A stretch of 64,000 bases of DNA from Zygnema cylindricum (Eukaryota; Streptophyta; Zygnematophyceae; Zygnematales; Zygnemataceae). Both the position numbers and the translations under genes were made by a program. The DNA is taken from NCBI GenBank assembly GCA_037447655.1, contig JBBHKE010001830.1:36746-100745 (forward strand), in the 5' to 3' direction. The stretch's first letter is position 1, and every line of letters begins with the position of its first letter. The notes under the pieces are model-generated. The model searched no databases. It saw only the letters and a list, made by a program, of their open reading frames with translations, and was not told the origin of the DNA. Shown here one piece after another: positions 7,441 to 61,579 of the stretch.

Positions 7441-9052
7441 CCTCCTACATGAAGAACCGAGCTGTATCCTGAAGCGGTGGCTCAGGTGACTTCTACTCTT
7501 GCTAGCACCCAACCAAAGGTTCTTTCCTCGGATACCAGCCGAAAGCCTCCTCTTCAGCGGGAACAGGGGGAAACATTGAACCTATTATGAATGATTTGGG
7601 TGCAGATTTACCTCTTTAGCTTGTTACGCTTCCCCAGGGAGAACCTAGATTTGTATAGGTGAAGGTTGCTTTCGATGTGGAGGCTTTGGTGGAGTTACGA
7701 CCAGACAAGAGGATTCACATTCCCTTGAGGCCGTCAACACCCACTTCCACATCTCTCGGAAGATCTTCTCCTCCTCTATCATCTTACCTCCCGAGTCCTA
7801 CATTCGAGCCCCGGGATGTTCCCGCCTCCTCTCTTTCTTCATCCTTTTCTCCCGCTGCTGCTGTCTGTGGGTCACTGGATTCGCCTGTCTTACTCTACAA
7901 ACACGATGTTTACTCACCACCACACCGGCGTTCCCCATCCTCCAACTGAGACTCCCCCTCCCGAGTTTTTCCGAAGGCGTCCAAGGAGACGGACACCATT
8001 CACGAGACAAACATCTTCTCCTCAAAACCTCTAGCCGTCTCCTTCTCTGCCACCACCCATTCCCTAAGGACCTCCTTTGAACAGACATCACCTCCACATT
8101 CCATCTGTGGAGCAATTTCTCAAGGAAGAACAATACTCTCCTGGATATAAAGGAATAAAAGGGAGCAACCTTCCTCCCACCATATTTTCAGGCGAAGATA
8201 CTTCCTCTTTGGGAAGGGGATCCTCACCTTCCAGGGCACCACTTCCTACCGGAGGAGGAGACGGTTTCGCACCCGAGGAAGAAGATGTCGGAGTAATCTT
8301 GCCTGCACAGTTTGTCAGTCTTACTGTGCCTTCATCTTCCCATTTTTCCAATCTTGATGAGGAAGAAAAAGAGATGGGGGACACCCGGATCTTTACAGGA
8401 GATAGCTCGGGGATCGCATTTTCGGATTTCAAATTGTTGTGGAAGTCATTCACCCAATCTGAGATCAATAAATATAGAGGAGTAATTATAGATGATTTTG
8501 AAACAACCCTCTACCCAATAATCATCAACTTCCTTTTTGGAGGGGCATTGGTGGATTACAAAAAGCTTCAACCTCTTTTGATGGCCCGTAGCATCAAAAT
8601 CTCGAATCCCGCCCTTGATGCTGCTGTGTCACAAGCAGAGGCTGTTTTGGGCGCGGTAGCTGTAAGACCTGTGACGGCTACCTTTACCGAGGAGATGAAA
8701 CTATAGGCACATGGAGGTGCCTATGTTAACTAGCTACAAGCAATTCAGACAGCCTAGACAACAACGCGTATGGTTGCCAATCCCAACCCTTGTACGACCC
8801 TGCTTAACATCTGGAGACTCCTCTACACTGAGAGGAACGAGTCTTAAATCAAGGAATTCACGAAATTCCGCTGTTTGAAGAATGAGACTACGTAGACCCT
8901 CTTTAATCGACTATCTAGCCTTTGTTAGAACGCAAAGCTGTCCACGATTGGTCTTACGGCGATGGCTACCAAATACTTCATAGCCGTCCGTAATTCATTC
9001 GGGCTATCAAGGCAGACAACTTTGGATAATAAGATTGCCAGACAGGCGATGA
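7441..9052 (+). pseudogene. Second Gypsy gag copy, truncated
   Basis: Forward-strand homologue of the gag carried in reverse by the element at 9252-21414. It shares Pro/Ser/Thr-rich N-terminal sequence, then 'GIAFSDF.LLWK.FTQSEI', the 'GGAL.DYK' block, and downstream (after a stop near 8704) 'TRMVANPNPC' and 'WRLLYTERNE' in a broken frame. The longest open part is 8077-8706. Several in-frame stops follow. Homology stops abruptly around 9052 inside gag, where repeat R begins. No pol follows, so this is a remnant. A Gypsy gag assembles virus-like particles around the element RNA. Confidence 0.8.
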
Positions 9053-9251
9053 CGAGCGTGCCTGGTGACCGTGAGGTTCAGGTAAGATGTCGTATGAGGT
9101 ATGCATGAGAGACATGCCATCCACCCCAAATGGTGATGATTCCCCAGACCCGTGACCATGCCATTCTGTGTCTTTTCCCCCCACGGATATGCAGAAGTGT
9201 AATGAGGAATGCAGTAAAGAAGAAAAAGTACTTTGTACCCCCTTGAGATAG
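9053..9251 (+). repeat. Dispersed repeat R, copy 2
   Basis: About 80-85% similar by eye to 10450-10665 in the same orientation. It sits exactly against the outer end of the left Gypsy LTR, while its sister copy sits against the inner end. It has no coding signal. Confidence 0.8.
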
Positions 9252-10440
9252 TGCTTTTCTACCGAAAGCTCACTAAGTCCTACACTCCCGACCACTCTCT
9301 AAAGAATAGGGAGGAACGGAGGGTCGTCCGATCAGGCTCGTAAGAATTCCGGACAAAAACCAAAGATGACCACAAAAGTGTGCAAAGAACTCCTACGCAC
9401 AAATATAGAAATAACAAATATCGGCTCTCTCAGATTAAACAATATCACCTTGCCCTACAGAATGGAAATGAATATATAAATAAATGATAATGGTGAAGCG
9501 AATTCACATACCCCGGAGTGCAACGATGACCAAACTCAGCTGAAGGAAACTCTCCCAATGGCCCCGAAGACAGGTAAGAATTTCCCTCACCCCTCCCGGT
9601 TCCACCGTATGGATCTGACAAGACTCTTCTTAGTTTGAAAAAGTGAAAGTCCAAACCGCCCAAAGCGAGGATAGTGCAAACTACCCACCCTTGCTACGGT
9701 CTCCACAAAAGACAATCCAAAATAAAGATGGCAATAGAGTCCACAACAAAATGCAAACATTCTCCAACAGAAAGATTGATTTAATTCACAAGGGGTTTTC
9801 TTAGGAGACAGTACTGAAAAAGCAACCTGTGTCATTCGACCCCAAGTGCCTTATACAACCAAATTTTGTCTAACTGCAAGTGCCAAAATCAAAGCAATTC
9901 CAAAAGCCAATCAACGGCACCAATTGTTATCGCACGGACATAAGACAAAACAAACTGTACTACACTCAAGGCAAAAAGCTAAGCGACTGGTTTCGGCTGA
10001 AATCACAGCCACAGGTCCTCGTATTGTACACTAGTGGGCAACAAAGTCTTCAATTGACGTGAAACGCCAAACTTTGACCTGGTGTTATAAATGCTCTGCC
10101 AGTCGGTTGGACCCAAACTGACATCCTACTCACAGCTAACAGCAAGATCTACGGGACAATCTTAAAGGCTGCGTGTTGTTCCACAATGTACCCCTTTGTT
10201 AGAGCTACACAGAACGGATGCCATGTAATGGAGCCGCCACCTGTGCACCAGACTAACTCCGCAGTCCGACCACCGTTTAAGGTGAACTAAAGTGAGTTGT
10301 GCTCCATGGTAAAAATACAAAGTTCTGATTCGACGGGTTGTCCCCCCCCCCCCTTCTCCGTACGATGGAGTCCGTACAAGGTGGAATGAGGCCTGAGGAA
10401 CTTCTGGGAGTGCAAATGTGCCGAAGATGCACACGAGCTT
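9252..10440 (-). repeat. Left LTR (3' LTR) of the methyltransferase Gypsy
   Basis: Matches 20229-21414 along its full length with roughly 90% identity by eye, both starting 'tgcttttct' and ending 'cgagctt' on the forward strand. For a reverse-strand element this is the 3' LTR. It contains a C-homopolymer near 10342-10353 that is absent from the right LTR. Confidence 0.88.
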
Positions 10441-10449
10441 GACAGTTGT

Positions 10450-10665
10450 CGAGCGTGCCTGGTGACCTTGAGGTTCAGGTAAGATGTCCTATGAGTTGTG
10501 CATGAGAGACCTGCCATCCACCCCAAATGCTGATAATTCCCCGACCCGTGACCATGCCCTTCTTTGTCCTTCCCCCGTAGAGATATGCATAGGTGTAATG
10601 AGGAATGGAGTAAAGAAGAAAGAGTACTCTGTACCCCCCCAAGATTCCCCCCCCCTCTAAGTCCC
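10450..10665 (+). repeat. Dispersed repeat R, copy 3
   Basis: Lies just inside the 3' LTR, between it and the end of the integrase-PHD frame, so it occupies the element's 3' untranslated region. Its sister copies lie at 9053-9251 (same orientation) and 124-338 (inverted). Confidence 0.8.
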
Positions 10666-10689: not shown

Positions 10690-11243
10690 TTATCCGCCAA
10701 ATTCGCAGTCCCCACAGAACCACAGATTTGCGGGTTGAGAGCAAGGCTCCGAATTCAGCGGTAGGCAGCTGTAATGCCACCCTTGGTGACAACCTTCACA
10801 CACCAACAAGGGGTCGGGTACGGGAGACACATCGCATGCAGAAGAACAGGATGGTGGGTTTGCAAAGTAAGTGAGGTGGAAAGTTGGTTCGTCCTCTAAC
10901 CCTCGCAGGTGGCAAGGGGCCACATTGATCTGATTCTTTTTAATTTTGCAGCCATCCTTCCCTTCCAAAGTAAGAACCCCTTTTTTTGAAACCTCCACTA
11001 CCTTCAGAATTACTTGTCCAGCCGAAATGTCCAAAGTATCTTTCTTTTGTTGCATGCGATACACAAAATCCCCCGGCACAAATCGTCATTGCCGCGGAAC
11101 ATAATTGCTGCTCTGCGTTGGGAATACCAAAGCTGATCCCTATGCTGAGCACCCTGTAAATTGCCCATAGCCAGAGGTATTTCCCGGTGAAATACCTTGG
11201 CCCTGTTGGCAATCAGTTTTTCGACAGTCCCCTGGTTGTCCAT
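10690..11243 (-). pseudogene. Gypsy integrase C-terminus fused to a PHD finger
   Basis: The frame that begins near 11079 opens with PGDFVYRMQQKK, the usual small-barrel C-terminal domain of a Gypsy integrase. It continues to a PHD zinc finger at about 10705-10848 with ligands in C4HC3 order: Cys78, Cys82, Cys94, Cys97 (VCEGC), His102 (GWH), Cys105, Cys122 and Cys125 (WFCGDC). PHD fingers usually bind histone H3 tails, so an integration-targeting role is likely by analogy with the chromodomain of chromoviruses. A frameshift near 11080 separates this part from the preceding integrase segment (11080-11243). The first Cys pair is spaced CX3C rather than CX2C. The stop just after the PHD is the probable polyprotein end. 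Confidence 0.85.
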
Positions 11244-12717
11244 TTCAGGAATTACAACCGCCTGAGTCGATGCAGCCCCAGGTAAGATAAGATGTCAACC
11301 GAAGAGAATGAAATAAGGGATGTAGGAATGGAGAGATGCTTGCCGGCTGAACGTGTATCCCCTGGCAATTCAAGGCACCCGTCTGTCCCATTCCCCCAAA
11401 TCCTCTTCCACTGCATATTTCCGTAGTGACCGCTTCACTGTCTGTACGCACCTCTCGGCCAAGTCGTCAGCTTCGGGGTGGGTCCCGGCTGGTTAGCCGG
11501 TGGTCTATGAGGCACTGCTCCAATAGGTTAGAGAATTCACCGGCGAACTCGGACCCCTGATCCGTTAGCACCTTAGCTGGGACTCCGAATTGAGACAACA
11601 CTCTCTGCAAGAATGCGTCCGTGATTGCTTTGGACTCCTTCCGGGGAAGTACCACCAATTCGATCCATTTAGAGAAGTGCTCAATCATGACCTGGACAAA
11701 ACGGTTTCCCCTCCGGCTAGTGGGAAGTGGTCCCAGCAAATCTAGTGACCATCTATAAAACATCCCCAGGATGGGGAGGGAGTGAAATTCTGTCTCACCC
11801 TTTTTCTCAAAAGCAGCTTTAACCCGGTCACAAAAAGGACATGTCAGCACCACACGATTGACATGGGCCCGCAACCCATGCCACCAATACGACCCTATGA
11901 CCAGTGAGGTGGTCTGTTTTTGCCCGAAATGCCCGTTTTGCTGGTGAAGCGGAACAATGAGTGTTTCCCGATCTGCCGAAAGAGGAACCACTTTCGTCGT
12001 CCCATTGGCCCATTTCCGAAGAAGAATGCCTCTATCCAATCCGTACGCCGCCATTCGGTTTTGAATGCGGAAAAAGTGAATTTTGACAAGGTGAGGAAGA
12101 GGGGAACCCTTCTGGATAGACTGGAGGGAATAGGCATCATTCCAAATATCCTTGCGGTTGGCTCCAATAAGAGCCTGCCCCTCTACATCTTTAGCAAAAG
12201 TTGACAGTTCTCCTTCGGCCCGAGGAAGCCAAATAAAGGCGGAGGAAGCCCGGATAAGTCCCAGGCTGAGCTTTGGGTCTTCGTCGTGCCGCGCTCCGGT
12301 AAAGTCTCTGGTGGAAGGGTTCGGATTCCTGCTGAGTCCGTCGGCATTCCCATGAATCTCTCTGGCCCGATGGATGATGTTGAAATCATATTCCTGCAAG
12401 ATGAGAACCCATGTGGCCAGCTTGTTAGTCAACTTATTGTTCTCCATGATCCATTTGAGGGGCTGGTGATCCGTGATAAGAGTAAAGTGTACTCCATAAA
12501 GGTAAGGCCGGAAATGCTGTATAGCCCACACAGCTTTGAGTAATTCCCCATGGTAACTGCTGTAATTCCCCTCAGCTCTATTATTACTAGAGCTACCGTA
12601 GGCAACTACATACTCAGCCTTTGCATCATCGAATTGCGCCAAAAGTGCTCCCAATCCGAACCTGCTCCTATTCATATTTAGGAAAAAAGATCGCAGGTGA
12701 TCGAGCATCTGGAGCAC
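11244..12717 (-). pseudogene. Gypsy RNase H and integrase
   Basis: A 416-codon open frame (11467-12717) encodes RNase H in its first 115 residues ('SYHGELLKAVWA', 'TDHQPLKWIM') and then integrase. The integrase shows the HHCC zinc module (HQQNGHFG... ending CPFC) and a DDE core, with first Asp in 'WSLDLLGP' and second Asp in 'LTDQGSEF'. A frameshift near 11490 moves the third catalytic region (THPEAD, then AER) into another frame. Further stops follow down to 11244. RNase H removes the RNA template and integrase inserts the cDNA. Most of the fold is present but the broken frame makes the integrase inactive as it stands. Confidence 0.9.
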
Positions 12718-12786
12718 AGGATGCTACTTAAGGGAATCTTTCAGGAATTAGAAAGTAATCTGTTGTTCTTCTTTCCACTGCCATTC

Positions 12787-13660
12787 CTAGTCTTTTCTCA
12801 ATAATAGATTCAATAGCTGAGCGTGGCTATTGAATTCAAGAATAAACCTTCGGTAATAGTTTGCAAGGCCTAGGAAAGTACGAAGAGCAGAAATGTCCTG
12901 CGAGGGAGGAAGAGCGTCAAGGGCTGCCACCTTAACCATGTGGGGGCCCACTGTCCCAGAAGTTACCTCATGACCCAAATAAATGATTTTTTGCACCTCA
13001 TAGATGCCTTTCCCCGAGTGACACTTCAAGACCCTTGCTTGGAGCGCTCGTAGAACAATCTGTATATGCTCCAAGTGTTCTTCGAATGTCTTGGAGAAGA
13101 TTGCTACATCGTTGATGTAGCATCAACGAAGTTAATTCCCCGGAGAGCCTCGTCCATGGCCCGTTGGAATTTGGCAGGTGCATTTTTGAGGCCAAAGGGC
13201 ATGTATAGCCATTCATACAGCCTGGATCCTGCCCAAAAAGCCGTCCTCTCCCGGTGCTTCGGCTCTATTGCAATCTGGTGAAATCCATTCTTCATATCCA
13301 ACGTGGAGTAGATGGTGGCCCCAGCAAGAGAGTCAAAGATCTCTTCCGGGGTAGGCATAGGATAACGGTCGGAGACAGTTGCCGCGTTGAGCATCTAGTA
13401 GTCCCCACACATCCGAAAATCTACCGTTTTTCCGGAGGAGTCTTTCTTTAGCGAGAGCACGGTTGGTGAGGCAAACTAATGTAGCCCTGTACTCTCCTGC
13501 ACCAGCCCTGCATCCACCAAAGTTTGCACCTTTGTGGTAATGAACTCCTTCTCCTTCAAACAGAGAGGATACTATTTCTGCCAAACAGTTGCCGTCTCGT
13601 CGATCAGGTCTATCCGGAAAGGGGTCCCCTTAAAGATTCCTACATCTGTGTCAGACCAGG
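12787..13660 (-). pseudogene. Gypsy reverse transcriptase, catalytic motif lost
   Basis: Read leftwards from about 13660 the strand shows the pre-RT motif 'DLIDETATVWQK', the fingers block ('ASPTVLSLKKDSSGKTVDF', 'MCGDY'), 'YPMPTPEEIFDSLAGA', the first catalytic Asp in 'STLDMKNGF', 'MPFGLKNAPAKFQ', then the thumb 'YLGHEVTS' and 'FLGLANYYRRF'. The signature that should read YIDD is YIND at about 13102-13113 (GAC to AAC), and the frame shifts just before it. In-frame stops lie near 13480 and 13395. The enzyme would copy element RNA into cDNA, but this copy cannot. Confidence 0.9.
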
Positions 13661-14084
13661 CAAACACGTGCCCGTTCTCCTCTAACAGCTTGGAGAGCTG
13701 GGCCTTCTACTGTGGTTGTGGCTGTTCCCCTAGAGTCCAGTCCATCTTCCCGGGTTCCACTGCCGCCAATGCTTCTAGTGGCCGACCCCATAGGGAGATG
13801 TCGAATTTCAGCTCTACCTGTGGGTCTGTCCCTTTTTCGGTTGTTAAAACGCTGCTGCTGTCAACTTCCCTTGAGCTGCCCTAATCTGAGCCTTGGCTCC
13901 CCCCCACTAAGGAAACTTCTGGGTTTAGTGTGCTAATGAATGAAATTGTGTGATTTTTTCCCTGAATTTTTCCCTTCTTTCTTCTCTCCCCCCCTCAAGC
14001 TGCAGAGTAGCTTGCATGGCCAACAACTGTGGAGCTTGAGGTATGCTCCCCGTGACTTTAGAGACTGGTGGCTAGAGAATGCTA

Positions 14085-15040
14085 GAGAATGTTGCAGCAT
14101 CCAAGAAATTGCATTCAAATCCATACTTTGCCCGATTAAACAACACATTTTTGAGGCTGAGACCCTTGGTGCTGTTGTGGTTGCTTGCCATAATCCCATT
14201 GCTTGTTCCCGTTCCTCAATGCTTGGTGCTGTCCAAGTATTTGCTGTACTGTCAAATATCATCCAAGGTGCGCCTCTCCGGTAAGCATGGCTGTTAGGAA
14301 AAGATACCAGGGTTGGTAGGGCCTTCCATGGATATCCGGGTTCATTGCAACAGAATAAGGGTGCTCGCTCGGCTTTGGTCAATGGTATGGCCATGTGACT
14401 GGTTCGAGAATCTGTTAAACTGTGATGTTGGGATCCGGAACCTGGGTTTTCAACAACTTTTGGAGGATGTAAAGGGGAACCATGTTGGTCAATAAGCCCA
14501 AACTTTGTGGGCTCTTGATCCGACCTGAGCGACATCAAAAACTATTGGAGTCCCTCGAACCTTGGTAACTTGGTTCCAGCTGTTGACCACCTGATTTCTT
14601 TTATCATCTGTGGGGTGAACATTTTCCAAGACGTACCCCACTGGTGTGTCCTGGCGTTCCTATATCTTTGTCATTAGTCGCGTCATCTGGAAGAATGTTC
14701 TGCTGCGGACATCTTGGTGTCCCCTGCCCTGTCCTTCTAATGAATACCCTTGGCACGGCCATCCAGCGATTACTAGATCCACCCTTCCAAGCTTTTTCAA
14801 ATGTGAATTGGTGATATTGTCCATATTCTGGGGAAGCGTGCGGTGAGAGTTAGACATGGAGGACACCGGGAGTTGCTGTGGTTAAAGTTGGTGCAGCTGT
14901 TGCAGTCGGTACTCACAGACTGCACGGGTGTCCGGATCAATCTCGATTGTTGAGTACGCTTTTACTTGGTATCCAGCTTTTAGGACGGCCTCCAGATCGA
15001 AGCTAATGCCAGAAAATAGTGATAGAATCCTGAGTCTTGA
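14085..15040 (-). pseudogene. Retrotransposon-borne cytosine-5 DNA methyltransferase
   Basis: A catalytic-domain-sized C5 DNA methyltransferase (about 320 codons) lies between protease and RT. Motifs in order on the reverse strand: I, SAM-binding LSLFSGI (15005-15025); the acidic IEID block (motif II region); IV, GWPCQGYS with the catalytic Cys codon at about 14753-14755; VI, LENV (ENV at 14618-14626); VIII, QVGSRAH (14507-14527); IX, ALPTLVSFPNSHAYR (about 14280-14322); a PSIEEREQAMG block (about 14194-14226); X, LIGQSMD (about 14119-14139). It would transfer methyl groups from SAM to cytosine. The layout is most like the DNMT3/DRM side of the family, but the subclass is uncertain. It has no N-terminal reader domain. 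Motifs I to VIII stay in one frame interrupted only by stops at 14882 (TAA), 14660 (TAG) and 14489 (TGA, in place of an expected Trp). A frameshift precedes motif IX. Confidence 0.9.
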
Positions 15041-15254
15041 GGGCGGGAACTCTAGTGACACCTCCTGTCGATTGAAGTCTTCCCCTTTGTTAGGAGCTGT
15101 TGAAAGTTCTGACCAGGGAACCTTTGTTTTCCAGATAATATTGCAGCAAAGCTCTTGTCCACTTCTCGCCGAAGTGTGGCCATCTGTCTTAATCGGTTTT
15201 GGTACTCCCTTTCCCACCACTTGGAAGTAGGGAATTGCTAGATGGAGTTGGCGA

Positions 15255-16146
15255 TACCGGAAGAGTAGTCGAACAGCTCTGAAGGGGTTTAGGTAGAGTA
15301 TACGGGATAGCATCGAGACACAGGAACAACTATTTTTCCTCGGTTCCATAAATCGAAGGGGACCACCACTTTGGTGCCCTCCGGATCCTCCTGGTATGAG
15401 ACTGTAATTTGTTCCTTCCATACGCTCAATTCCATGTTCCATCTTGTCCACGTTGCCATTCCCAGCAAAATTACGAACTGATTACCTTCCACCACTAGGA
15501 AGGGAAGCTGAATTTGAACGTGCTTGCCTGCGTCATCTGCAAATTCGATTTCCATGGCTTTTCTGATACCATATACTGGTTAGCTCCCACTGCTGACCGT
15601 GCGCAGGCACATGTCGCTAGGGCTGATTTTTGGCCGAAGTTCCTCGGACATTTGTTTTAATGCTGAGGTGGTGATGAGATTATTGAGAGCTCTGGTATCC
15701 ACCACTGCATCCTTGTACCCGTCGTATTCATTAAGTTTAAAATTTCCCGTTCCGTTTAGAATAAGAGCCACTGATAGGGCCTTATAATCTTTATCCGCCA
15801 TAAAGGTTTTTGGTTCCTCCGACATGAAGACTGTCTTGGGTGGTTCTGCCAACGCGACCCTTTCCCTCCTGGTGTGAATCTCTTCCCGTAGTGCCTGAAT
15901 GAGGGTTTCTTCGGGGAGATTGTGGGAGGAAGCTAGCGTATTGACGTGCGTCAGGGTGTAGGGCATCAAGTGCCGTACTAACATGACTGCGGGTTTGGAG
16001 GAAGGAGGGTGAGCTTTGGGCGATGAAATTGGTGAGTCCTTTTCCTCCGATTTCTCCTGTCTCCCCCCTCCTTCTTCCTCACTTTCTGCGTCAAAATTTG
16101 CTGTTGGAGGTGTCACTAGCGGAGCCGTGGGTGGTCTCTCGGCCAA
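15255..16146 (-). pseudogene. Gypsy aspartic protease
   Basis: Retropepsin-like region in two frames (15580-16146 and 15289-15555). The active-site stretch is 'AVVDTRALNNLITTSALK' with DTR at 15691-15699 instead of DTG (AGA for GGA), followed by the C-terminal half with 'FVILLGMATW', the usual second signature. The Pro/Ser/Glu-rich stretch at the start (16000-16146) is a linker from gag. A protease of this kind cuts the Gag-Pol polyprotein. The Gly-to-Arg change and the frame break at about 15570 should inactivate it. The methyltransferase follows directly downstream. Confidence 0.78.
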
Positions 16147-16196: not shown

Positions 16197-19100
16197 TTAG
16201 CTATGATTTCTTGTAATCTTCGAGACTGAAGGAAGTTTCTTTGGAGCCAAGGGAGACGGATGAGTCGGTTTCAGGCCTAGCATAATGTCAATGTTCAAAA
16301 GAACTGCTCGCGGTGTAAAGGATAAGGGACCCGTGGCTTTGCGGCTGTGGTCCTTTTGTTCCATCGGCTGTTTGTTCTTTCTCGGGGAGGACGTTGTAGA
16401 GCAGAGTTGCCTGCGACTATCCCCTACACCAATGTTCCAGGCCCCGGACCGAAATGTCCGGGCATGATGAGCCTTCGGCGGCTCCATATCCCAACCCATT
16501 AGTTCATCATCATCTTCACCCACTGTAGTCTGCTACTCCAGCTTATCTAGCCTTTGTAACAATTCTTGTTTTTGTTTTTGCAGTTTTTGAGCAGGCGCAA
16601 GAGGATGAGGTGTGCGGGAAGTTGATCCCAGGCAGAGAGCAGCCAGCTCGGCAGCCAAGGCGGCCAATTGAGTGCTCTGCTGCTGAATGATTTGTTGCGG
16701 AGTCAGTCTGTTGGGTGTTAATTCATCTGGAGATCGACGTCCCCAGGGATACAAAATTTGTAATGGAAGAGAGTTAAAAATTGTTTCCCCTTCTCCGATG
16801 AATAAGGCATATTGCATCATCTCCTTTAAGACTCCATTTTTCCGAAAACATTGTCCTTCTTTGTGGCCCATGAACCCACAAGCCTCACATTTTGACCCCT
16901 TAGTAGTATACGTTCCCCTTAGCTCATTTGAGATCTGACCATCATCAAATTAAGGAAGACTAGTTTGTCTGAACTGGGATTGAGACATCTTAGCGGTTTC
17001 AGACCGTGAATTAGGTTTATAAATGTCCTTGTTGACTAGCCTGCGGTCTCCTCCTCCTTGCTTGCGTTCCTGCTGGTTTCAGGTACGTTCTGCACGTTCT
17101 TTCTAAAACTCCTTTTTCTTGATAGCGAGTTATTGGTTGAGCTTCCTTAGACATTGTTTCCACCCGTGACCGGTTTGGTTACAGTTCAGGCAATTGTAAA
17201 GGTAAACTCTTTCGTCCGCGCCCATCGAAGGTTCGGGTTTGCGGTCAGATTCTTTTTTCCCCTTAAGTTTCCGCAAAGCTTGAAGTTCGGTCTGTTCCTC
17301 TTGGTTGAGAGATGATTCCGCGGCAAAACCTGCAAAGTTGGCTCCCGACTTCCCAGTAACAGCCTTTTCTCTTGCTTCGCTGTGCATAAAATGATCATAC
17401 AACTTCATGGCAGCCAATGAGATTTCCTGAGCCGTGGGATTCCGGTCGTGAATGGCCTGACTGGCACTCTAATTGTCGAGAGCTGCCTGTCTTGTTGGCC
17501 CGAACGAATTTTGAACAGCGACATAATACTTAGTGGCCATAGCCGAGGTATCAATGGTTGACAATTTGGTCTTTTAGCAGAGGCTGGAGAGGCGATTGAA
17601 CATCGTCTGAGGGGTTTCATTCTTCAAACAACAGAAGTCTGTAAACTCCTTAATTGCAGTTTCGTTCCTTTCTGTGTAAAGGAGTCTCCATGCGTCCATA
17701 AGAGTGCTGCATGGATTCGGGTTGGCGACCATCCGGGTGGCTGCCTCAGCGGCCTGTACGGCCTGCAGGTGGTTGACATAGGCCCTGCCTTGGGCCTGCA
17801 GTTTCATGTCCATAGTGAAAGTGGGGGTAAGAGGAGCTGTGCCGATAGCAGCCAAGTTGGTCGCTGCTTGAAGAGCATCGGCGTCCATAACCAGATCAAA
17901 TATTTTGATGCTTGGAGCCATCAACAAAGGCTGACGCTCCTTATAGTCGGGCAAAGCTCCTCCGACTAGATAATTGACTATCATTGAGAACATAGTGGTT
18001 TCAAAATCTGCTGGGATGCCCCCCCCCCTGTATTTGTTGATTTCAGACTGCGTGAAGAATTTCCACAACAGTTCAAAATCAGAGAAAGCAATTCCGGAGT
18101 TGTCCCGGGTGAAGATCCAGATGTCTCCCATTCTCTTTTCTTCTTCGGTAAGTTTAGGGAACCATGGTGATGCTTGTCCGGTCGGGCTGACAAATTGAGC
18201 CAGTGAGATTGCTCCAGGATCTGTTACCTCAAGATCTAAACCGGTCCCTCCTCCAATAGGAAGGGTGGTTGTACCAGCAGTGCCCCCCCCCCCACTGAGG
18301 AAGGTATGGCTCTTGAAAAAGTGGGATAGTCGTCTGCCCCTCTATATCTTGGAGAGGCGCGTGCTTTCCGGAGAACTTCTTCTTCCGATGGTATGTGAAG
18401 ATGAGGACGAGGTCCTCATGAATGGATGGCGGTGGAGAGGGTGATGACAAGAAACTTGGAGGAGAAGGTGACTGTTTCCTGAAAGAAGTCTGCTTCTTAG
18501 GTCGCCTCCAGGGATCTTCGGGAGGAGGAGTTCCGCAACTAGAGGATGGCGACCATCTGTGAGGAGGCAAGTAGACCTCCTGTTTGTGGGGTAGGCGAAG
18601 AGGACCTGGAAACCCACGGACTGCTTTGCGGGAGAGATGGATGGCAAGGGGGAAGAGGAGTGAGGGGGTGATGGAGGAGGAGTGGTCAGTCCGAGAAAAA
18701 TGTGTAGTGTTCGGTCGGGTTGTACCTGCACCACGGCCTCCATGGTGGAAGATCCCGCGACCGAAACAAAGGTAAAGAGAGCAGTAGCCGCGGTTACCGA
18801 ATTAATCCGCAAATCTGCACCCAACCCCTCTTTGTTAGGCCTTGTTGTTTTCTCCCCTTCCCGCTGAAAAGGAGATTCTAGTCTCAGTGCTGGTGAAGTC
18901 TTGGGATCTCACGTGACGGGAGGAGTTGCATAATCCAGAGGTTGTACTTCCATCGCGGGACCTATTCTACGAGGAGGAGCTACTTGTCCACTAAGGATTC
19001 CCCCAGATCTCCGTCTAGCTTCCCGTATCAAGATCAGCTCCTGTTCCAATGCTCTCTTCCATTCCTCTTCAAGAGCATCCCAATCTATTGCGACGGGTCC

Positions 19101-20128: not shown

Positions 20129-20228
20129 GACTTACAGTAGCAAATGAGCTAGATCTCTCAGATAAAGTCCACCACCCTAAACAATTATCCTCTTCAACAA
20201 AAGGGGACAGGTAGCTTTTTCAGTACAG

Positions 20229-21414
20229 TGCTTTTCTGCCGAAAGCTCACTAAGTGCTACACTCCCAACCACTCTCCAAAAAATAGGGAGGATCGGAGGG
20301 TCGTCCGATCCAAACCGCAAGAATTCCGGGCAAAAACCAAAGATGACCACAAAAGTGTGCAAAGAACTCCCACGCAGAAATATAGAAATAACAAAAATCG
20401 GCTCTCTCAGATTAAACAATATCACCTTGCCCCAGAGAATTGAAATAAATATATAAATGAATGATAATGGTGAAGCGAATTCACATACCCTAGAGTGCAA
20501 CGATGACCAAACTCAAAAGAAAAAAATTCTCCCAAGAACCCCGAAGACATGTAAGAATCTCCCTCACCCCTCCCGGTTCCACCGTACGTATCCAACAAGA
20601 CTCTTCTTAGTTTCAAACAGCGAAAGTCCAAACCGCCCAAAACGAGGATAGTGCCAACTACCCACCCATGCTACGGTCTCCACAAAAGACAATCCAAATC
20701 AAAGATAACAATAGAGTCCACAACAAAATGGAAACGTTCTCCAACAGAAAGATTGATTTATTTCTCAAGGGGTTTTCTCAGGAGATAGTACTGAAAAAGC
20801 GACCTGTCTCCTTCGGCCCCAAGTGCCTTATACAACCAAAGTTTGTCCTACTGGAAGTGCCAAAGTCAAAGCAATTCCAAAAGCCAATCAGCGGCCAAAA
20901 ATTGTCATCGCATGGACATATGACAAAACAGATTGTACTACACTAAGGGCAAAAAATTAGGCGACTCGTTTTGGCTGGAATTACAGCTTTTGGTCCTCCT
21001 AGTCTACAGTAGTGGGCAACAAAGTCGTGAATTGACGTGAAACGCCTAACTTTGACTCGATGTCATAAATGCTCTGCCAGTCTGTTGGACCCAAACTAAC
21101 ATCCTACTGACAGCTAATAGCAAGATCTACGGGACAATCTTAAAGGTTGCATGCCATTCCACAATGTATCCCTCCACTAGAGCTACACAGAATGGATGCC
21201 ATGAAATGAAGCCGCTACCTTTACACCGGACTAACTCCGCAGCCCGACCTCCGTTTAAGGTGAACTAAAGTGCGTTGTGCTTCACGGTAAAAATACAAAG
21301 TTATGATCCGACGGGTTGTCGCCTCCCCTTCTCTGTATGCTGGAGTCTGCACAAGGTGGAAAGAGGCCCTAGGACTTCTAGGAGTGCAAATGTGCCGAAG
21401 ATGCACACGAGCTT
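20229..21414 (-). repeat. Right LTR (5' LTR) of the methyltransferase Gypsy
   Basis: Partner of 9252-10440. As the 5' LTR of a reverse-strand element it should hold the promoter. The adjoining leader (20129-20228) has no clear tRNA-complementary primer site that I can see. Immediately outside lies a tRNA-like sequence. Confidence 0.88.
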
Positions 21415-21436
21415 AACACCCATACTAGGGGAAAGT

Positions 21437-22726: not shown

Positions 22727-24330
22727 TCAGTCACTAAGTCCACATTCCTCTCTACAAAATTTCATTTTAGGTGCAGGTAAAGCCTTAGTCATCATATATG
22801 CTACCATCATCTCATCCGGCAAATAACTAAGTTTCAAAATTCTATTCATCACCTTCTCTCTTACAAAATGCAGCTTGATATCAATGTGGTTGCTTTTGAA
22901 GTGATGACTTCGCTTAGATGCAATCGCTATGGCTGCCTGGTTGTCACACCACACTATTTGAGGTCCAGATTACATGAAATGAAGTTATTGAAGGAGAGAC
23001 TTTACCCAAAGTAACTCCTTGATAGCTGAGCTGGTTGCCATGTATTCAGCCTCCATTGTAGACTGAGCTATGACTTTGTGAAACTTGCTGCTCCAGCAGC
23101 ATGCTCCACTTCCAATATTCAGAATGAATCCGGTAGTGGAGCGGCGGCTTGGCATTTCTCCGTAATTCGCATCGCTCCAAGTCTGAATTTTTACTTCACC
23201 TCCACCGAGAGCAATTCGCAAATTCACTGTCTCTGCAAGATACTGCAGAACCCTCTTTGCTGCCTCCCAATCCGATCTCCTCGGAATTTGTAAACTCAAG
23301 CTTAAAGTACCGACTGCTGCCGCAATATCCGGACTTGTGAAATTCATGAAGTAGATTAGATTGTCGACAATCTCAGGACATAGAATGGGAGCCATAGAAT
23401 CTGCCTCCCCTAATTCCAAGGTGTCATCAAAAATGACTCCTCCATCCGTCTCCGTGCCTTCCACCTTTTGCTTAAATTCCATAGGAGTGGCACTTCCCTT
23501 TGCCTCTGCCATGCTAAACTTTTCAAGCATGTTCCCAATCGCTTCCCGCTGCGTTAGATAAATCATTCTCCGATGTCTATCTCTTTCTATAAGAAATCGA
23601 AGAATGTGCTTTGCCTCCCCTAAATCTTTCATCTCAAATCTGGAATTCAATGTAGCCTTTATTTTGTTAATCTCATTTAATGACTTATTAAGTAGCAGAA
23701 AATCATCTACATACACCGCAATGTAAATAATCCCATCTTCCCCTTCCATAACATAGATTGAGTGATCCGAACTATCCTCACAAAGCCGAGACTAGTTAGA
23801 AACTCATCTAGTTTCAGATTCCACTATCATGGAGCCTGCTTCAATCCGAACAAGGATTTCAATTGCTTACGTACCAGATTTTCTTTTCCGGTCTCTGCAT
23901 ACATTTCAAGCTATTTCATATAGATCACTTCCTCTAAATCTCCATGCAAAAAGGTTGTCTTAACATCCATTGGATGTAATTCCCTATTCTCAATGGCTGC
24001 TAAAGACAACAAAATTCTAACAGTTGGAAATCGGACAACCGGTGAGAAAGTCTCTTCATAATCAATTTTCTCCTTTTGACTATAGCCTTTTGCAACAAGC
24101 CTAGCCTTATATCTTTCAATTGAATTATCCGGATTCAGCTTAACTTTAAAACCCACTTACACCCGATGGATTTCCGATCCTGTGGAAGCTCCACAAGCTC
24201 CCAAGTTTGAGCCTCCATAATCGATCTCATTTCATCATTCGCCGCGGAAATCCAATTATCCTTTTCTAGGGCTGAAAAGGCTTTCTGTATGGTGACCGGC
24301 TCCATCGTAGTGGTAGAAAATAGAGCAGGC
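22727..24330 (-). pseudogene. Copia-1 reverse transcriptase and RNase H
   Basis: RT begins with '[20 protein letters not shown]' near 24156 and includes '[14 protein letters not shown]' and '[10 protein letters not shown]'. A break follows around 23780-23910. The palm carries an intact YVDD at about 23700-23712 within 'AVYVDDFLLL'. The connection shows 'MEAEYMA' and RNase H ends with 'WCDNQAAIAIA', 'LHFVREKV' and 'MMTKALPAPK'. The stop between 22984 and 22954 splits RNase H. The catalytic motif is intact but the frame is not continuous. Confidence 0.88.
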
Positions 24331-24339
24331 TCCACCTGT

Positions 24340-26129
24340 TCACTTCGCAACGTCGTAGAAATATCGCAACTTCGCAGCTTGCAGCGTCGTAGTAGATTTG
24401 CAGATTCGTGGTTTCGCAGTTTTGCATTTTTCATCTAGATCTAGCATGCTGACAGAAAGTAGAGCAACTTCGCAGTTCCGCAGCTTGCTGCTTTGCCTTC
24501 TTCCCCCCGGAAAATCTGAGGCTGGAACTGTTGGAGCCAATCGTGTTCCCCGAGGAGGAGGAGGAGGAAGAGGAGGAGGAGGAGGAGGTGACGGAGTAGG
24601 TCCTACCGGCTGAATCACCGAAATGTCTGGAGATGATCCTCCGCCGATAGATGAAGAACTTGTCGCAGATTGAAGAGGAACATTTTCAAAAATTACATAT
24701 TCTTGATTTTTGGTATTTTTCTCAAAAATTGTCATGCCAAAAACATCAACCGAGTGACTCTCTTCCTTAACTTGAATATTTGTAGCAACTTGAAGAGTGT
24801 TTCTATCCGTATTGTATACTTTATAGCCTATGGAATCAACATCATATCCCATAAAAATTCGGGCAACAGATTTGGGATGAAGCTTAGAAATACGAAGATT
24901 GTCTAAAATAAAGCATTTGCTACCAAAAACCCGGAAGTGACTCACATTGGGTTTCTTTCCGATCCATACTTCATATGGTGTTTTTCCTTTTACTGCTCTG
25001 ATTTCTATTCTATTCCTAACATAAGATGCACAGGAGAAAGCTTCACCCCATATTTAAAATCTATCCCTTTATCTAACATCATAGATTTTGCACTTTCTGT
25101 TAAGGTTCGGTTAAGTCTTTCCGATACTCCGTTTTGCTCCGGAGTATAGGGAACTGTAAATTGACGAGAGATGCCATTTTCTTTTAAATAATCTGAAAAT
25201 GCATTAGAAATATATTCTCCGTTGTCGGACCGAAGGGAGAAAATCGGCTTCCCGTGATGTTTTTCCGCCCAAATCCGAAAGTGCTTGAAGTGAGTAAACA
25301 CTTCACTTTTCTCCTTCATAAAGTAAAATTTGCTGTATCGGGAGAAATCATCTGTAAAAGAGACTAAAAACCAGCTGCCACTAAGTGAAGGGACTTTTGA
25401 CGGTCCCCACACATCCGAATGAATTACTTGCAATAAATCTGTGGCCCGGCTATCCGCGGTTTGAGGTAGGGGCAGCTTGTGAAGCTTTCCCAAAGCACAA
25501 CCATCACATACATGAGACTCTTTTTGTTCTTATTCGACACCATCTATCATATTTTGTTTTACCATTTTATCAAGCCTTTCATAATAAACATGACCGAGCC
25601 TCTTATGCCACAAAACATTTTCCAGAAAGACACTGGAGTATGCAAATTCAATTTCATTAGCCAAGTCCATCCGGTACAACAAGTTTGGGCCTCTAGTTCC
25701 TACCAAGGCTACTCTCCCATCTTTGCTTACTACCTTTTTCCCATTCTTTTGCAAAATTTCAAAACCTTTCATTTCAGCTACCGAAGTGGAAAACAATTTT
25801 TTCTTAAATTTTGGAATATAGAGAACATCATGTAAGGTCCTCTTTACAATCTGACCATTGATGTCACATGCTAACTCCACGCTTCCCTTTGCCGTAGCCT
25901 CCACACCGCTGTCATCCGCATAATAAATCCGACGAGTGGGAATTGGATTGAGGGTTTTGAAGTAAGCCCGGTTGCCGCACATGTGGGAAGAGCACCCGGA
26001 ATCCATAATCCACCCGTTCTCTTGAGGTCCTTCCATGAGATCTTTCGCAAGAGCAAAGAATTCATCGTCATCCGATTGCGGAAATCTGACCACATCGTCC
26101 TTTTCTTCCGCGGGATTATCTTGCTCCAT
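24340..26129 (-). pseudogene. Copia-1 protease and integrase
   Basis: The protease active site 'WIMDSGCSSHMC' is intact (Asp at about 26001-26003). The integrase zinc module includes 'LWHKRLGH' and the core has the three acidic residues in 'HSDVWGP', 'RSDNGEY' and 'NGVSERLNRT'. A stop lies between 25494 and 25530, and the frame shifts near 24990. The linker before RT (24340-24620) is unusual. It encodes a polyproline run and then a stretch built from 'gcgaagttgc'/'gcagcttgc'-type words resembling the LTR's GCAGC-rich segment. Confidence 0.87.
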
Positions 26130-26261
26130 CTCGTCGATTGCAAAGAAAGCCGCATTTTTAACCGGAAATTTTTATGCCAGAAACTTAGGTGATGAAGTCT
26201 TTGATCGCACCTTCCATCCCACACGATAAATTCTTGTTTCACATGCTTTTATAAATTCCGG

Positions 26262-35958: not shown

Positions 35959-37455
35959 TTGGACCTACATTTCATTGATGAGAAAGGTAGCCATGGGATG
36001 TTTAGGCTGATCTTAAGTAATGAAATGAAGAAACTTTATTATGCTGGTGTTCATGATATTATGATGTGGCATAAGAGGCTTGGGCATGTGAATCTAGATA
36101 AGTTAAGAGAGATGAAAAAGATGGGAGTGGTGGAAGGGATTCAGTTCAGTGAGAGTGATGATATAAGTGATTGTAGTGGGTGTGCTCAAGGTAAAGCACA
36201 CAGATTACCCTTTCCTAAAACAGCCACCTATAAGGGAGAAAAACTTCTAGATCTAGTACACACAGATATTTGGGGACCGGCTACGGTGCCCTCACCGGGG
36301 GGGAAGAGATTTATGATGACTATAACTAATGATTGGTCTCAGTATTCCCGAGTGTATTTTTGAAAAACAAGTCAGAAGCTGAGGATTGTTTTAGACAATA
36401 TAAAGCATGGAGCGAAAAACTCCATGAAACTCCAATCAAGAGAGTAAGGAGTGACAATGGTGGAGAGTATACTTCTAACCAGTTTGAGGATTTTCTGAGG
36501 GAAGATGGGGTCCAACACCAAAAGACAGTTCCAAAAAATCCGGAACAGAATATGGTAGCTGAAAGGTTAAATAGAACACTAAGTGATAGTGCTAGAAGTA
36601 TGTTGTCAGATAAAAAGATAGGAAAATATTTTGGGCAGAAACAATGAACTGTGCTAATTATCTCAAAAATAGAGTTCTTACTTCAGCTATAAAAGATCAA
36701 ACACCTTATGAGAGATGGACAGGTCGGAAACCAGACATATCTCACTTAAAGGTTTTCGGCAGTCAAGTATTCAGTCTAGATCCTAAAGGAAAACCGGGAT
36801 ACTTATTAGGATATGATGAGGATGTGAAAGGATATAGAGTTTATGTTCTAAAAAGGGAAGATATAATCTTAGTAAAACATCTAGTAGTTATGGCTGAAGG
36901 AAAGTTTAGGGATCCCTTCAAATATACAAAGTCAGAAAAAATCAGATTTGAGTCAGAAAATTCTGATGACTTTGAGCTTCCTAACTATCCAGGTTTTAGA
37001 GACAATGACATTCTTGCAGGTACAAATCAGACCGAAAAGAACTCTGCTGTGGAAACTCCAGTGACAACTCTACCCGAAGCGGAAGAAGTGGTGGAAATTG
37101 ATTCGGAATCAAGGGATAGGGGAGAAGCCGAGTTTGTTCGAAAGAATCCACGAGAACCATCAATTCCCGCCTCAGATTTTGAGGGGGGGAAGAGATGTAG
37201 CAAAAGACTGCAAGAAAATCAGGTTAATAACAAGGTAACTAAACTATCTTATCAAGATGAACCTCAAACTTATGGAGAGGCGATGACTTGTCCAGAAAGA
37301 AATTGGTGGAAGACAGCCATCAATGAGGAGATGGCCTCAATTATGGCAGTCAATTCTTGGGAGGTGGTGGATTGTCCACCTAACCAAAAAACCAATTGGT
37401 TGTAAGTGGGTTTTCAAATTAAAACTGAACCCAGATAACACAATCGAGTGCAAAA
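35959..37455 (+). pseudogene. Copia family-P integrase/early-RT fragment
   Basis: A close forward-strand duplicate of 39985-41501. It covers the end of protease, the integrase ('MMWHKRLGHVNLDKL', 'DCSGCAQGK', 'HTDIWGP', 'RSDNGGEY', 'NMVAERLNRT'), the linker, and the start of RT up to 'NPDNTIEC'. All three integrase acidic residues remain, and zinc-module Cys residues are kept where the other copy has lost one. The Gly before VAERLNRT is Met. A frame break lies near 36360. It is truncated at both ends. Relative to the other copy it lacks a 27-bp segment flanked by 'ctaga'. Confidence 0.88.
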
Positions 37456-37527
37456 AAGATGACGTCGAGAGTCAACCAAGTGCCGCCAAAAAGGTTTAGG
37501 GTTCCAAATGTTGTTCTACGACCACCG

Positions 37528-38561
37528 TGTAGAAATTAATGGTTTTTAAAGTATTTTCTAGGTCTGAAATAAGAAAGAAGCTGAGGCAGTCTACCTCAAA
37601 CTTCTCTCTCCAACTCTCAAACTTGTCGCAGTCACTAAGAAATTGAAAGGAAGCTAGAGCCATGGCTACCTAGGCTATCCTGAGGTTTACGGGAAATATA
37701 TAATTGGGGTTTATTAAGTAAAAAGATATGCGGCGGCCACAGGATTTTAACCTGGTACCTGTTGGACAGCAAACTGCCGGTAGACGGTAAGCTTAGCCGT
37801 TAAGTTTAGAAGTAGTGTTACGTACTATATGGTTTGATAATTAAAAAAACATTATTACGTAGGATAAATCATTTAACTATAACTTTTTACGGGATACATA
37901 GAACCGGTAGAGTAAAAGTACAAATTGCGGTACGGATAAAAAATCAATGCCGCGCATTGATTTCGTAAGCGAAACAAATACCGCGCATGTATTTATTACG
38001 GCTACGATCAAATGTGAATTTAATCGGATGGCCGGAATTAGCGCCGAGATCTCGAGGAAGAATTCGGCGGTTTGTGGGCATCGCCACATCAGATGACAAG
38101 TGGCAAAATTACATTCAATCGTGGTATCTCCGAAGATTACGACACCGAAACAGGATATGACATGTGTCGACATTTAGGCCATGTTGTACAATTTCCGTAC
38201 ATAAAGTACACCGGCAATTGTACTTTTGTGTACGGAGGAGAAATCTGATTGATTCCGTACATCAATAGATAGAGTTTGTGAGAGAGATAGGACTTAGAAA
38301 AATTAGGAGATAGGACCCTCTCTCCTAGAGAGCTTCTGTACAAAAGGTCAACTTTGACCCTCCATAACTTACGGAGCAAATTCAGAGTTTCTTTTTGCTA
38401 TCGACTCAGGAAAGTCTTGCCTTCACAAGGGTGCACGTGGTCAGAGTTTTTGTCTGCAAGGGTGGCAATTGGTTTTGCTGAAACACAAAAGGGTCAGGAT
38501 TATCCTAGAGGCTTCTTAGAAGCTGTCCACTCTGAGGACTTATGGAGGTCTCAGAGTAACA
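37528..38561 (+). repeat. Copia-P 5' LTR
   Basis: TGTAGAAATT start and a CA end after 'ctcagagtaa'. About 95% identical by eye to the 3' LTR. The ABRE-like word is mutated here (acaagtggc). The first bases of the internal region, 'agttatcgaccc', weakly resemble a site for an internal initiator-Met tRNA half, but this is speculative. Confidence 0.9.
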
Positions 38562-39670
38562 AGTTATCGACCCACACTGTAGGGTACCAATCTTTCATGG
38601 AACTGGCTTCATATACTGTGAAAGTATGATGATAGGAGCTCTATGCGAAAAACGTTTTGGGGGATAGTGAGTGGACGGTTGGGGCGTCCATCAAGTCTTG
38701 GGATCCCTCCAGGGTTTGGAGGAAGCAGATTTACCAAGAAAGAGGATCCACCTTCAACGGAGGAAACACAAGAAGAAGAGGTGGTGGACAAAGGAAAGGA
38801 GAAGGAGACCACCACACCAATAGCAACCGGTTCCGCATTCATGTCACCTATTCCAAGGAACGAGGAGAATGATACTGAAACCTGGGACTTCAACAATATG
38901 GCGGCAAAACACTTCATCCTACGCCATCTCACTCAATGACTTGCATGTCCTCATTTGTAGGTAGAAAGGGCATCTGATCTTTGGATGGCTCTCATAGGGA
39001 TGTACCGAAGTGGTACGATTTAGCAACAACAGTTGGCTGATCAAAAAGTTAAGGAGTATGTATACAAAGGGAGAAATATGTTGGATTTTTGCAATGAGCT
39101 TGCTACACTCTTCATGGAGCTAGAGAGTGCGGGCAAGGTTTTTAGTGAAAAAGAAAAGGTTAACTGTTTACTGATGAAGTTACCTGATGAGTTCGAGAAC
39201 ATAGTCAACCGTGTGCAGGACTTGCCGGACTCAAGGTGGATATGGAACTCAGTAGTAGGGATGATTCTCGTTTGAGAGAATACAATTGAGATCCGAAGGG
39301 GAGGAAAGAGTGGCCAAGCGTTGGCAGCAGCGACCTATTGGAGGAACAAGGATTCCCGGAAACTGGAAACTATGGGGGTAGGGAGCAGAAAAAACAGGCT
39401 GACGAGTTCAAACCAAGGGCTTCCAAAGGTTTATGTCAATTTTGTAAGAAACCTCGGCACTATATGGCAGAGTGCACTAAGCTAACCGAGCTTCGGTTAA
39501 AGGAGGGGCAGATCGGTGGTACCCCGAGAGGAAAGAAAAAGGCCCTTGTGACACAGGTGCATGAGGCGGAATCCGAGGACGAGGACGATGAGCTCCTTTT
39601 AGATGAGGAGTTGGAGGCGAAAAACGAGGTCAAATTCCACGAAGGCAGAAATGTGCTTATATTGGATTGA
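38562..39670 (+). pseudogene. Copia-P gag
   Basis: Fragments in several frames. Near 38660 is 'SEWTVGASIKSWDPSRVW', then a Glu/Lys-rich stretch, then 'DFNNMAAKHFILRHLTQ'. The Copia gag core (39033-39275) has 'EYVYKGRNMLDFCNELATLF' and 'LLMKLPDEFENIV', and there is a CCHC knuckle CQFCKKPRHYMAEC at about 39440-39480. Stops at 38937 and near 39274 break it. It would form the particle shell and bind RNA. Confidence 0.83.
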
Positions 39671-57955: not shown

Positions 57956-58110
57956 ACGACACGGCCTTGTTAAAAATATCCACAATAAAAAAAACCATGT
58001 CCATAAAAAAAAAGACAATTTTCAACTTGAAGCAAAAATAATCAAACGTTGTATTAATTAGGGGGATATGTTCTAATTCTCACATTAAAAATATGTCAAC
58101 TCGTTGCAGG

Positions 58111-58192
<82 letters not shown>

Positions 58193-58247
58193 GTATGTGT
58201 ATATATATATGCATGTGTATATATATATGTATGTGCATATATATATG

Positions 58248-58339
<92 letters not shown>

Positions 58340-58362
58340 CATACATATATATATACACATAC

Positions 58363-58397
<35 letters not shown>

Positions 58398-58410
58398 AAC
58401 ACATACATAT

Positions 58411-58474
<64 letters not shown>

Positions 58475-58502
58475 ACATACATATATATATATATATATAA
58501 AT

Positions 58503-58553
<51 letters not shown>

Positions 58554-58590
58554 AATATATATATATATACATATACACATACAAATATAT
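58111..58590. repeat. TA-rich microsatellite with higher-order pattern
   Basis: About 480 bp of (TA)n broken by regularly spaced 'tatgtatgtg' and 'cacatacata' variants. The left half carries 'gtatgtgtat' and the right half 'acacatacat', so the whole is an extended inverted repeat. All Tyr/Ile-repeat frames across it are artefacts. Confidence 0.9.
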
Positions 58591-61505: not shown

Positions 61506-61579
61506 TTCATCGTTTGCCGCCTCGATCCATTGATTTCTCTCAGGTGATGAGAAGGCCTCATGGATTGTTAGAGGCTCAT

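Follow-up and report, generated by a model that had tools for sequence, protein, structure and literature searches.

A methyltransferase within a decayed Ty3/Gypsy element

The window, that is, the whole stretch of 64,000 nucleotides of Zygnema cylindricum DNA that was analysed, harbours a retrotransposon on its reverse strand. Its parts are given below in the direction of the element, with reference to L014, another copy from the same genome.

20227..21418, (-): 5' terminal repeat A1, 1192 nt, with the element start TGTTAAGC; 88.3% identical to 10444-9250
16830..18899, (-): gag region in several broken frames, located by tblastn with the L014 gag frame
15241..16068, (-): protease region, ending at the putative leaky stop; 82.6% identity over 276 aa to L014
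15232..15240, (-): putative readthrough site, in-frame UAG followed by CAAUUC, between protease and methyltransferase
14035..15073, (-): DNMT3-type C5 cytosine methyltransferase (MTase) domain, pseudogenised by three stops and two frame changes
12706..13631, (-): reverse transcriptase (RT); 87-93% identity to L014; PF00078, E=3e-14
12253..12702, (-): RNase H, from the L014 alignment; PF17917, E=2e-28
10963..12252, (-): DDE integrase with H2C2 zinc finger (PF17921, E=5e-12) and rve core (PF00665, E=3.5e-11)
10705..10839, (-): PHD finger at the integrase C-terminus; PF00628, E=3.7e-5, 24.1 bits, cut-off 24
10645..10658, (-): G-rich polypurine tract directly before B1, positioned by eye
10447..10640, (-): inner repeat B1; 88.6% identical to 9242-9050
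9250..10444, (-): 3' repeat A2, the pair of A1
9050..9243, (-): terminal repeat B2 and element end, the pair of B1

Compared with L014, the coding regions follow one another on the same strand as gag, protease, MTase, RT, RNase H, integrase and PHD region, the last spanning 10962-10693 (-) in that alignment. The succession of RT, RNase H and an integrase of the DDE type is that of Ty3/Gypsy elements. Gag is 79% identical over 477 aa to the L014 frame, with further pieces at 48-69% (tblastn), and Pfam names no gag family in this region of the window. The L014 protease frame resembles Asp_protease_2 (E=2.1e-4, 22.3 bits, under the cut-off of 24.3), and the protease piece of the window itself gave no Pfam match. 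At gathering score, no Rfam family matched the window.

The C5 methyltransferase that the preliminary description had placed between protease and RT is confirmed. The Pfam DNA_methylase profile matches the open piece 14881-14660 (-) with E=1e-8 and 35.5 bits (cut-off 22), and residues 1-201 and 227-347 of the L014 MTase align in order, on the same strand, with 15073-14471 (81% identity) and 14397-14035 (75%). Ten MTase domains from further copies were combined into a profile, which likewise matched five pieces of the window in order (74.0, 127.1, 85.2, 18.4 and 172.3 bits), covering model positions 2-344 of 352. By eye, the motifs FSGIS, AGWPCQG, ENV, SRAHKVWAY, PTLVSFPNSHAY and a C-terminal block can be recognised, SRAHKVWAY having lost one R by comparison with HRVRAY. 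As had been described, motifs I-VIII share one frame broken by three stops, which start at 14884, 14662 and 14491 in the three-frame translation; two frame changes between about 14490 and 14397 then precede motifs IX-X.

Read as a single frame with X at the stops, the window domain has DNMT3A chains as its best solved relatives (E=2e-8). The profile of ten domains ranks all DNMT3 chains first in the PDB, with 77.8 bits for DNMT3A, ahead of the best bacterial match (37.6 bits), DRM2 (32.3), DNMT2 (32.1) and DNMT1 (18.6), and the motifs are not rearranged as they are in DRM. Sequence relationships thus assign the MTase of the element to the DNMT3 class. The ADD and PWWP domains that accompany animal DNMT3 are absent from the Pfam matches of ten frames taken from sampled loci. 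A viral or bacterial source was also considered and rejected: scans that are a weak test, because each used only two peptide patterns, found two loci with MTase likeness in IMG/VR, at 26-29% identity, and none in GTDB. One of the two IMG/VR loci adjoins genes that look phage-like by eye.

A diversified family under purifying selection

The gene content of the genome searched (352.8 Mb) fits a green streptophyte that is probably not a land plant: it shows 88 matches to the light-harvesting family PF00504, a 167-aa piece resembling LHCII, two DNMT1-RFD matches on a single contig, an arrangement known from plant MET1, and one dynein-like cluster; rbcL had no match, and a K-box search, whose control likewise gave nothing, was empty. 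In this genome, PF00145 gave at least 123 matches (123 scored of 782 candidates), some of which may be host genes, and a 66-aa query across the protease/MTase junction gave at least 150 (150 scored of 561 candidates). Of the 123 matches, 20 were sampled with 10 kb of surroundings, most of them because of a high score or long open frames, and another 15 with 1.5 kb, so that the 35 loci form a non-random sample. Open copies do exist: MTase, RT, RNase H, integrase and PHD finger occupy one open frame of 1520-2395 codons in some of them. In L019 a single frame of 2395 codons encodes a zinc knuckle (weak, under the cut-off), DNMT (942-1078), RT (1496-1647), RNase H (Pfam), integrase (1962-2128) and PHD finger (2338-2382), with no protease among the Pfam matches listed; in L014, 1520 codons hold DNMT (70-249), RT (601-763), RNase H, integrase up to 1259 and a PHD finger under the cut-off. 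Protease matches in the upstream frame of L014 and in L020 are below Pfam cut-offs. Counting the window with the 35 loci, 16 of 36 places have an MTase frame that is uninterrupted across at least 90% of the profile.

On the basis of motifs and adjacent sequence, supplemented by a tree for the 16 open MTases, these copies fall into clade A (the window and 11 loci), clade B (6 loci) and clade C (18 loci). Amino-acid identity between A and B is 0.54-0.59 for the MTase and 0.76-0.80 for RT, and between A and C 0.375-0.425 and 0.48-0.51, respectively. Both the MTase and the RT trees separate C from A+B with support of 100/100, and the RT tree, with nine rows of which one is from B, leaves A and B unresolved from each other. 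The simplest reading of the sequences is a single acquisition of the MTase before the clades parted.

Pooled dN/dS ratios (omega, NG86), which are biased downward because only open copies entered, amount to 0.212 for the MTase of clade A (bootstrap 0.137-0.287), 0.216 for that of B (0.152-0.322), 0.204 for that of C (0.122-0.301, two pairs) and 0.200 for the RT of A (0.132-0.300). The pools leave out L016 (the same as L015), L020 (close to L019), L034 and L044, the latter forming with L022 a near-identical MTase pair with an omega of 1.42. With that pair set aside, pairwise values for pairs at least 68% identical range from 0.12 to 0.47 for the MTase and from 0 to 0.46 for RT; pairs across C subclades and one A-B pair are saturated at synonymous sites and have no ratio. 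When neutral evolution was simulated for five pairs, the frame remained open in 2, 0, 0, 6 and 46 out of 300 runs. The dN/dS check suggested beforehand therefore indicates, at an omega of about 0.20-0.22, purifying selection on the MTase about as strong as that on RT. The MTases of L016 (C1662) and L015 (C507) are identical over 351 codons, which may reflect recent sister copies or an assembly duplicate.

Taken by itself, the copy of the window is a pseudogene and could look like a one-off capture, namely a dead Gypsy element into which a methyltransferase gene of the host, or a retrocopy, had inserted. The same domain order in other copies, a protease/MTase junction at no fewer than 150 places, the concordant trees of three clades and the purifying selection leave this explanation a negligible probability; none of the copies seen lacks the domain at this place, the finding that was to betray a single insertion, and insertion of a host gene is ruled out by the other copies. 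Its sequence relationships identify the window element as a decayed member of a recently active Ty3/Gypsy family.

A conserved UAG ahead of the methyltransferase

The stop codon at 15240-15238 is conserved and is not a product of decay, since it is kept across copies. A scan for the start of the frame behind the stop, with the preceding codon left free, returned 16 instances from clades A and B, all with TAG and 15 with CAATTC after it, L016 having TAATTC. In the alignment of 15 copies (all but L016, with CAA changed to TAA) the longest stretch free of variation is TAGCAATTCC, of 10 bases, against a mean column identity of 70%. The sequence upstream of the stop is in the frame of the MTase in the seven copies checked, in which gag is interrupted. 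When stops were counted anywhere inside the match to the 66-aa query, irrespective of exact position, 141 of the 150 scored junctions had at least one TAG and 103 had one TAG and no other stop; for comparison, TGA occurred in 16 and TAA in 14. The nine junctions devoid of TAG comprise six with no stop, one with TGA and two with TAA. L019, from clade C, has no stop between the protease and MTase positions.

According to the consulted part of PMC2754532, the type I leaky stop of TMV requires UAG CAR YYA, and candidate readthrough among rice gypsy elements is cited there. The site of the element shares UAG CAA UU- with this signal; it agrees at five of the six positions after UAG, and the sixth is C where the consensus has A, so that the full consensus is not present. 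By its sequence, UAG CAAUUC may work like a type I leaky stop. Readthrough is strongly suggested, and in clades A and B the MTase would very likely be made only by way of it. It could be argued instead that UAG is not recoded and only ends Gag-PR, Pol being translated from its own start on a spliced or subgenomic RNA or by reinitiation. The departure from the full consensus would agree with this, and so would L019, which manages with one 2395-aa frame and no stop. However, the frame is the same on both sides of UAG, neither UAA nor UGA takes its place in any of the 16 scanned instances, and the invariant bases stand out in the 15 aligned copies; a plain terminator needs neither a UAG nor invariant bases behind it, and an own start of Pol is accordingly deemed improbable.

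Two further possibilities were rejected. The use of UAG as a sense codon in the host is unlikely because UAG is absent from the open frames that span 1520 and 2395 codons. A suppressor tRNA might have been encoded by the tRNA-like gene that ARAGORN predicted at 21508-21435 (-), which has a CUA anticodon and lies outside the element at a distance of 16 nt. This sequence belongs to a repeat that is present at least 40 times (40 scored of 781 candidates), pairing in its acceptor stem is imperfect by eye and no such gene was found at 44 other loci scanned; for these reasons it is most likely a tRNA-derived SINE and not part of the element.

The PHD finger and the altered motif of clade C

A PHD finger behind the integrase is seen in clades A and C. 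That of clade C matches many PHD fingers, the best being PHF12 (9e-16), with ATXR5 at 2e-10. Plant chromoviruses carry a chromodomain as a chromatin-reading module behind the integrase, and the Zygnema element similarly bears a chromatin reader after the integrase, but a PHD finger in place of a chromodomain. By analogy with chromodomains, the PHD finger may have a role in steering integration.

Motif IV reads PCQG in all 19 rows from A and B and ECQG in all 18 from clade C, so that in clade C a Glu takes the position of the Pro that precedes the catalytic Cys; the Cys, EN and RxR are kept in intact rows, and of the 37 rows in total, all 36 that extend over motif VI have its EN. The observed/expected CpG ratio is 0.63-0.76 at six A and B loci and 0.89-1.04 at three C loci, as calculated for nine of 20 loci (L010, L014, L019, L020, L022, L023, L024, L026 and L027) with flanks included and with age and composition not controlled. 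This difference might mirror MTase activity, or simply age, composition or flanks. It is quite conceivable, though less likely than not, that the clade C enzyme no longer methylates DNA and has been retained for binding or for another substrate, as the substitution in every row and the three C loci, which are not CpG-poor, would suggest. Against this stand the retained catalytic residues, an omega of 0.204 over two pairs, and the fact that the youngest copies measured belong to clade C.

Split repeats, insertion and age

The preliminary description had both LTRs present, and this has to be corrected: the ends are A and B, not identical LTRs as in Ty3/Gypsy elements, and in element sense the layout runs A1, coding region, polypurine tract, B1, two bases (GC or AC), A2 and B2. 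Ends were sought in 12 copies. Seven have the full split layout, namely the window, the L014 copy (C1374, with extra inserted sequence and a further B), C1344, C1915, C1042, C2458 (A1 partial) and C2526; C1407 has only the 3' B-A-B. The four lacking B-A-B are C783 (A1 only), C544 and C1920 (B1 present, no repeat pair in the stretches fetched) and C449, in which the A and B repeats from C1344 and C1915 found no counterpart. A search with B gave at least 40 matches (40 scored of 291 candidates), with same-strand pairs 1388-1408 bp apart on C1374, C539, C1769 and C2183, three of them new. In C1374 (31633-35348; L014, L029), an insert of about 3.7 kb separates a first B from the terminal B-A-B of the adjacent copy of clade A; on its flanks is a duplicated stretch of 330 bp (97.9%) that comprises the coding end and B.

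The polypurine tract has the same place in C1374, C1344, C1915, C1407 and C2526. Starts and ends are near-inverted, with TGTC(A/G)TGC in C1344 and C1915, TGTC(A/G)AGCG in C1374 and a weaker form in the window. Because the ends TGTC...GACA thus meet head to head, B1-NN-A2 equals the two element ends plus two bases, and the internal B|A junction reads GACA-NN-TGTC, as the joined ends would. Target site duplications (TSDs) are 4-6 bp long in Ty3/Gypsy elements. A 4-bp TSD was found in two of six copies with both ends readable, the two youngest measured: C1344 (TTGG), with A repeats 100% identical over 931 bp, and C1915 (CCCT), with 99.5% over 1475 bp. The L014 copy, the window, C1042 and C2526 show none, and in C2458 and C1407 the 5' end is unreadable.

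K2P distances between repeats are 0 for C1344, 0.004 for C1915, 0.021 for the L014 copy, 0.030 for C2458 and 0.174 for C1042 (partial A for both), and 0.124 for the window (A1/A2 and B1/B2), whose copy is by this measure old. The claim that the domain decayed recently relative to its capture also stands, as open copies exist, one of them with the fully identical repeats, next to this divergence in the window.

Split direct repeats in the order A-coding-B-A-B are known from PAT/Ngaro-type DIRS elements, which use a tyrosine recombinase and are not known to make a TSD. The Zygnema element has the same repeats, but with an rve integrase and the 4-bp TSD in two copies; the tyrosine recombinase family PF00589 is not among the matches listed, and a DIRS element would have no such integrase. 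For PAT/DIRS elements, template switching on linear cDNA has been proposed to explain the split repeats. The identical layout, together with the lack of a TGG-start tRNA primer site directly behind A1 in four copies (by eye), gives this route an appreciable chance here, a little short of even. On the other side, the polypurine tract at B1 and the seamless A2|B2 of C1344 and C1915 are both explained by plain LTR synthesis and ligation, the ends lack two bases of the spacer and the integrase is of the DDE type. Integration from a circle cut at B|A is the reading followed below.

Relation to known elements

Retrotransposon-borne methyltransferases had been said to be known from few lineages, which accords with the consulted part of PMC5890265, where Klebsormidium and Symbiodinium are the hosts. 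KnitGypsy-Dnmt3 of the charophyte Klebsormidium nitens is a Gypsy element whose Pol ORF includes a DNMT3-type MTase, with DIRS-like split repeats (A-coding-B-A-B, Fig. 4 legend) and purifying selection, all of which it has in common with the Zygnema family, also in a charophyte host. In yeast it produced no methylation, a result called inconclusive there, and SymbioDIRS-Dnmt3 of Symbiodinium showed de novo CG methylation. The latter, with DNMT3 in Pol, and SymbioLINE-Dnmt are a tyrosine recombinase DIRS and a LINE, unlike the Zygnema element, a Gypsy with DDE integrase. PMC6338049 lists PMC5890265 as a reference, and PMC12344493, in the part consulted, mentions DNMT-bearing retrotransposons and terms the streptophyte kind Copia.

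Compared by description, the leaky stop, PHD finger, TSD, circle junction and ECQ clade of the Zygnema family are not mentioned for KnitGypsy-Dnmt3 in the consulted passages of PMC5890265, which contain neither 'PHD' nor 'protease'. In the consulted parts of the literature on DNMT retrotransposons, no leaky stop, PHD finger, TSD, B|A junction or ECQ clade is described for such elements. Apparently, then, the leaky stop, the B|A junction with TSD, the PHD finger and ECQ are new, and the MTase-bearing Gypsy itself was already known.

A proposed model for the life cycle

A recently active Gypsy family combining readthrough, circle integration, PHD steering and self-methylation is the explanation that we regard, with moderate confidence, as probable from the sequences. 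Ribosomes would leak through UAG, and the MTase and Pol would arise only as a minor Gag-Pol fusion, which would be packaged with the RNA, both being released by the protease. Reverse transcription would yield a B-A...B-A cDNA that would be closed into a circle at A|B. The DDE integrase would then open the circle at the B|A junction and insert it with a 4-bp duplication, so that one B moves to the 3' end, and the PHD finger would guide the integrase towards chromatin that carries a particular H3 tail. The MTase may methylate its own cDNA or the fresh insertion de novo; new copies would settle as ordinary silent chromatin and the host would be harmed less. Self-methylation and circle integration are both inferred here from sequence features, and the purpose suggested in the preliminary description, methylation of own or host DNA so as to time expression or escape silencing, is conjectural. 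The enzyme might instead mainly protect the cDNA or alter host or rival DNA, rather than mark its own insertions for silencing. The constraint on the MTase is compatible with any function, and the lower CpG ratio of the A/B loci raises the possibility that A/B activity leaves a CG footprint; such a role is considered rather unlikely.

That one element unites a DNMT3-type MTase dosed by a leaky UAG, an integrase equipped with a chromatin reader and integration from circles opened where the two ends are already joined is put forward as a doubtful, tentative proposal. If true, a retrotransposon would write its own epigenetic state at insertion, and clade C would have re-tuned the catalytic motif to ECQ. 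MTase-bearing Gypsy elements are here abundant, diversified and recently active, not a small curiosity, and UAG, the B|A junction, the PHD finger and ECQ offer testable handles on why a transposon carries an enzyme of the type used by its host for silencing.

Neighbouring sequences

At 7581-9051 (+) lies the gag remnant of a related element in opposite orientation, 59% identical to the gag frame of L014 across 369 aa; it stops within 1 nt of the B2 end. Judged by eye from the translations, the window appears Copia-rich, with Copia-like polyprotein fragments at 22727-26171 (-), 36614-40816 (+), 46230-47608 (-) and 60010-63792 (-). PMC11096116 gives a similarly high Copia share, 29.8%, for Zygnema cf. 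cylindricum SAG 698-1a_XF. A long AT-rich microsatellite with in-frame (YI)n runs, at 58058-58640, adjoins a Copia gag-like frame (by eye).
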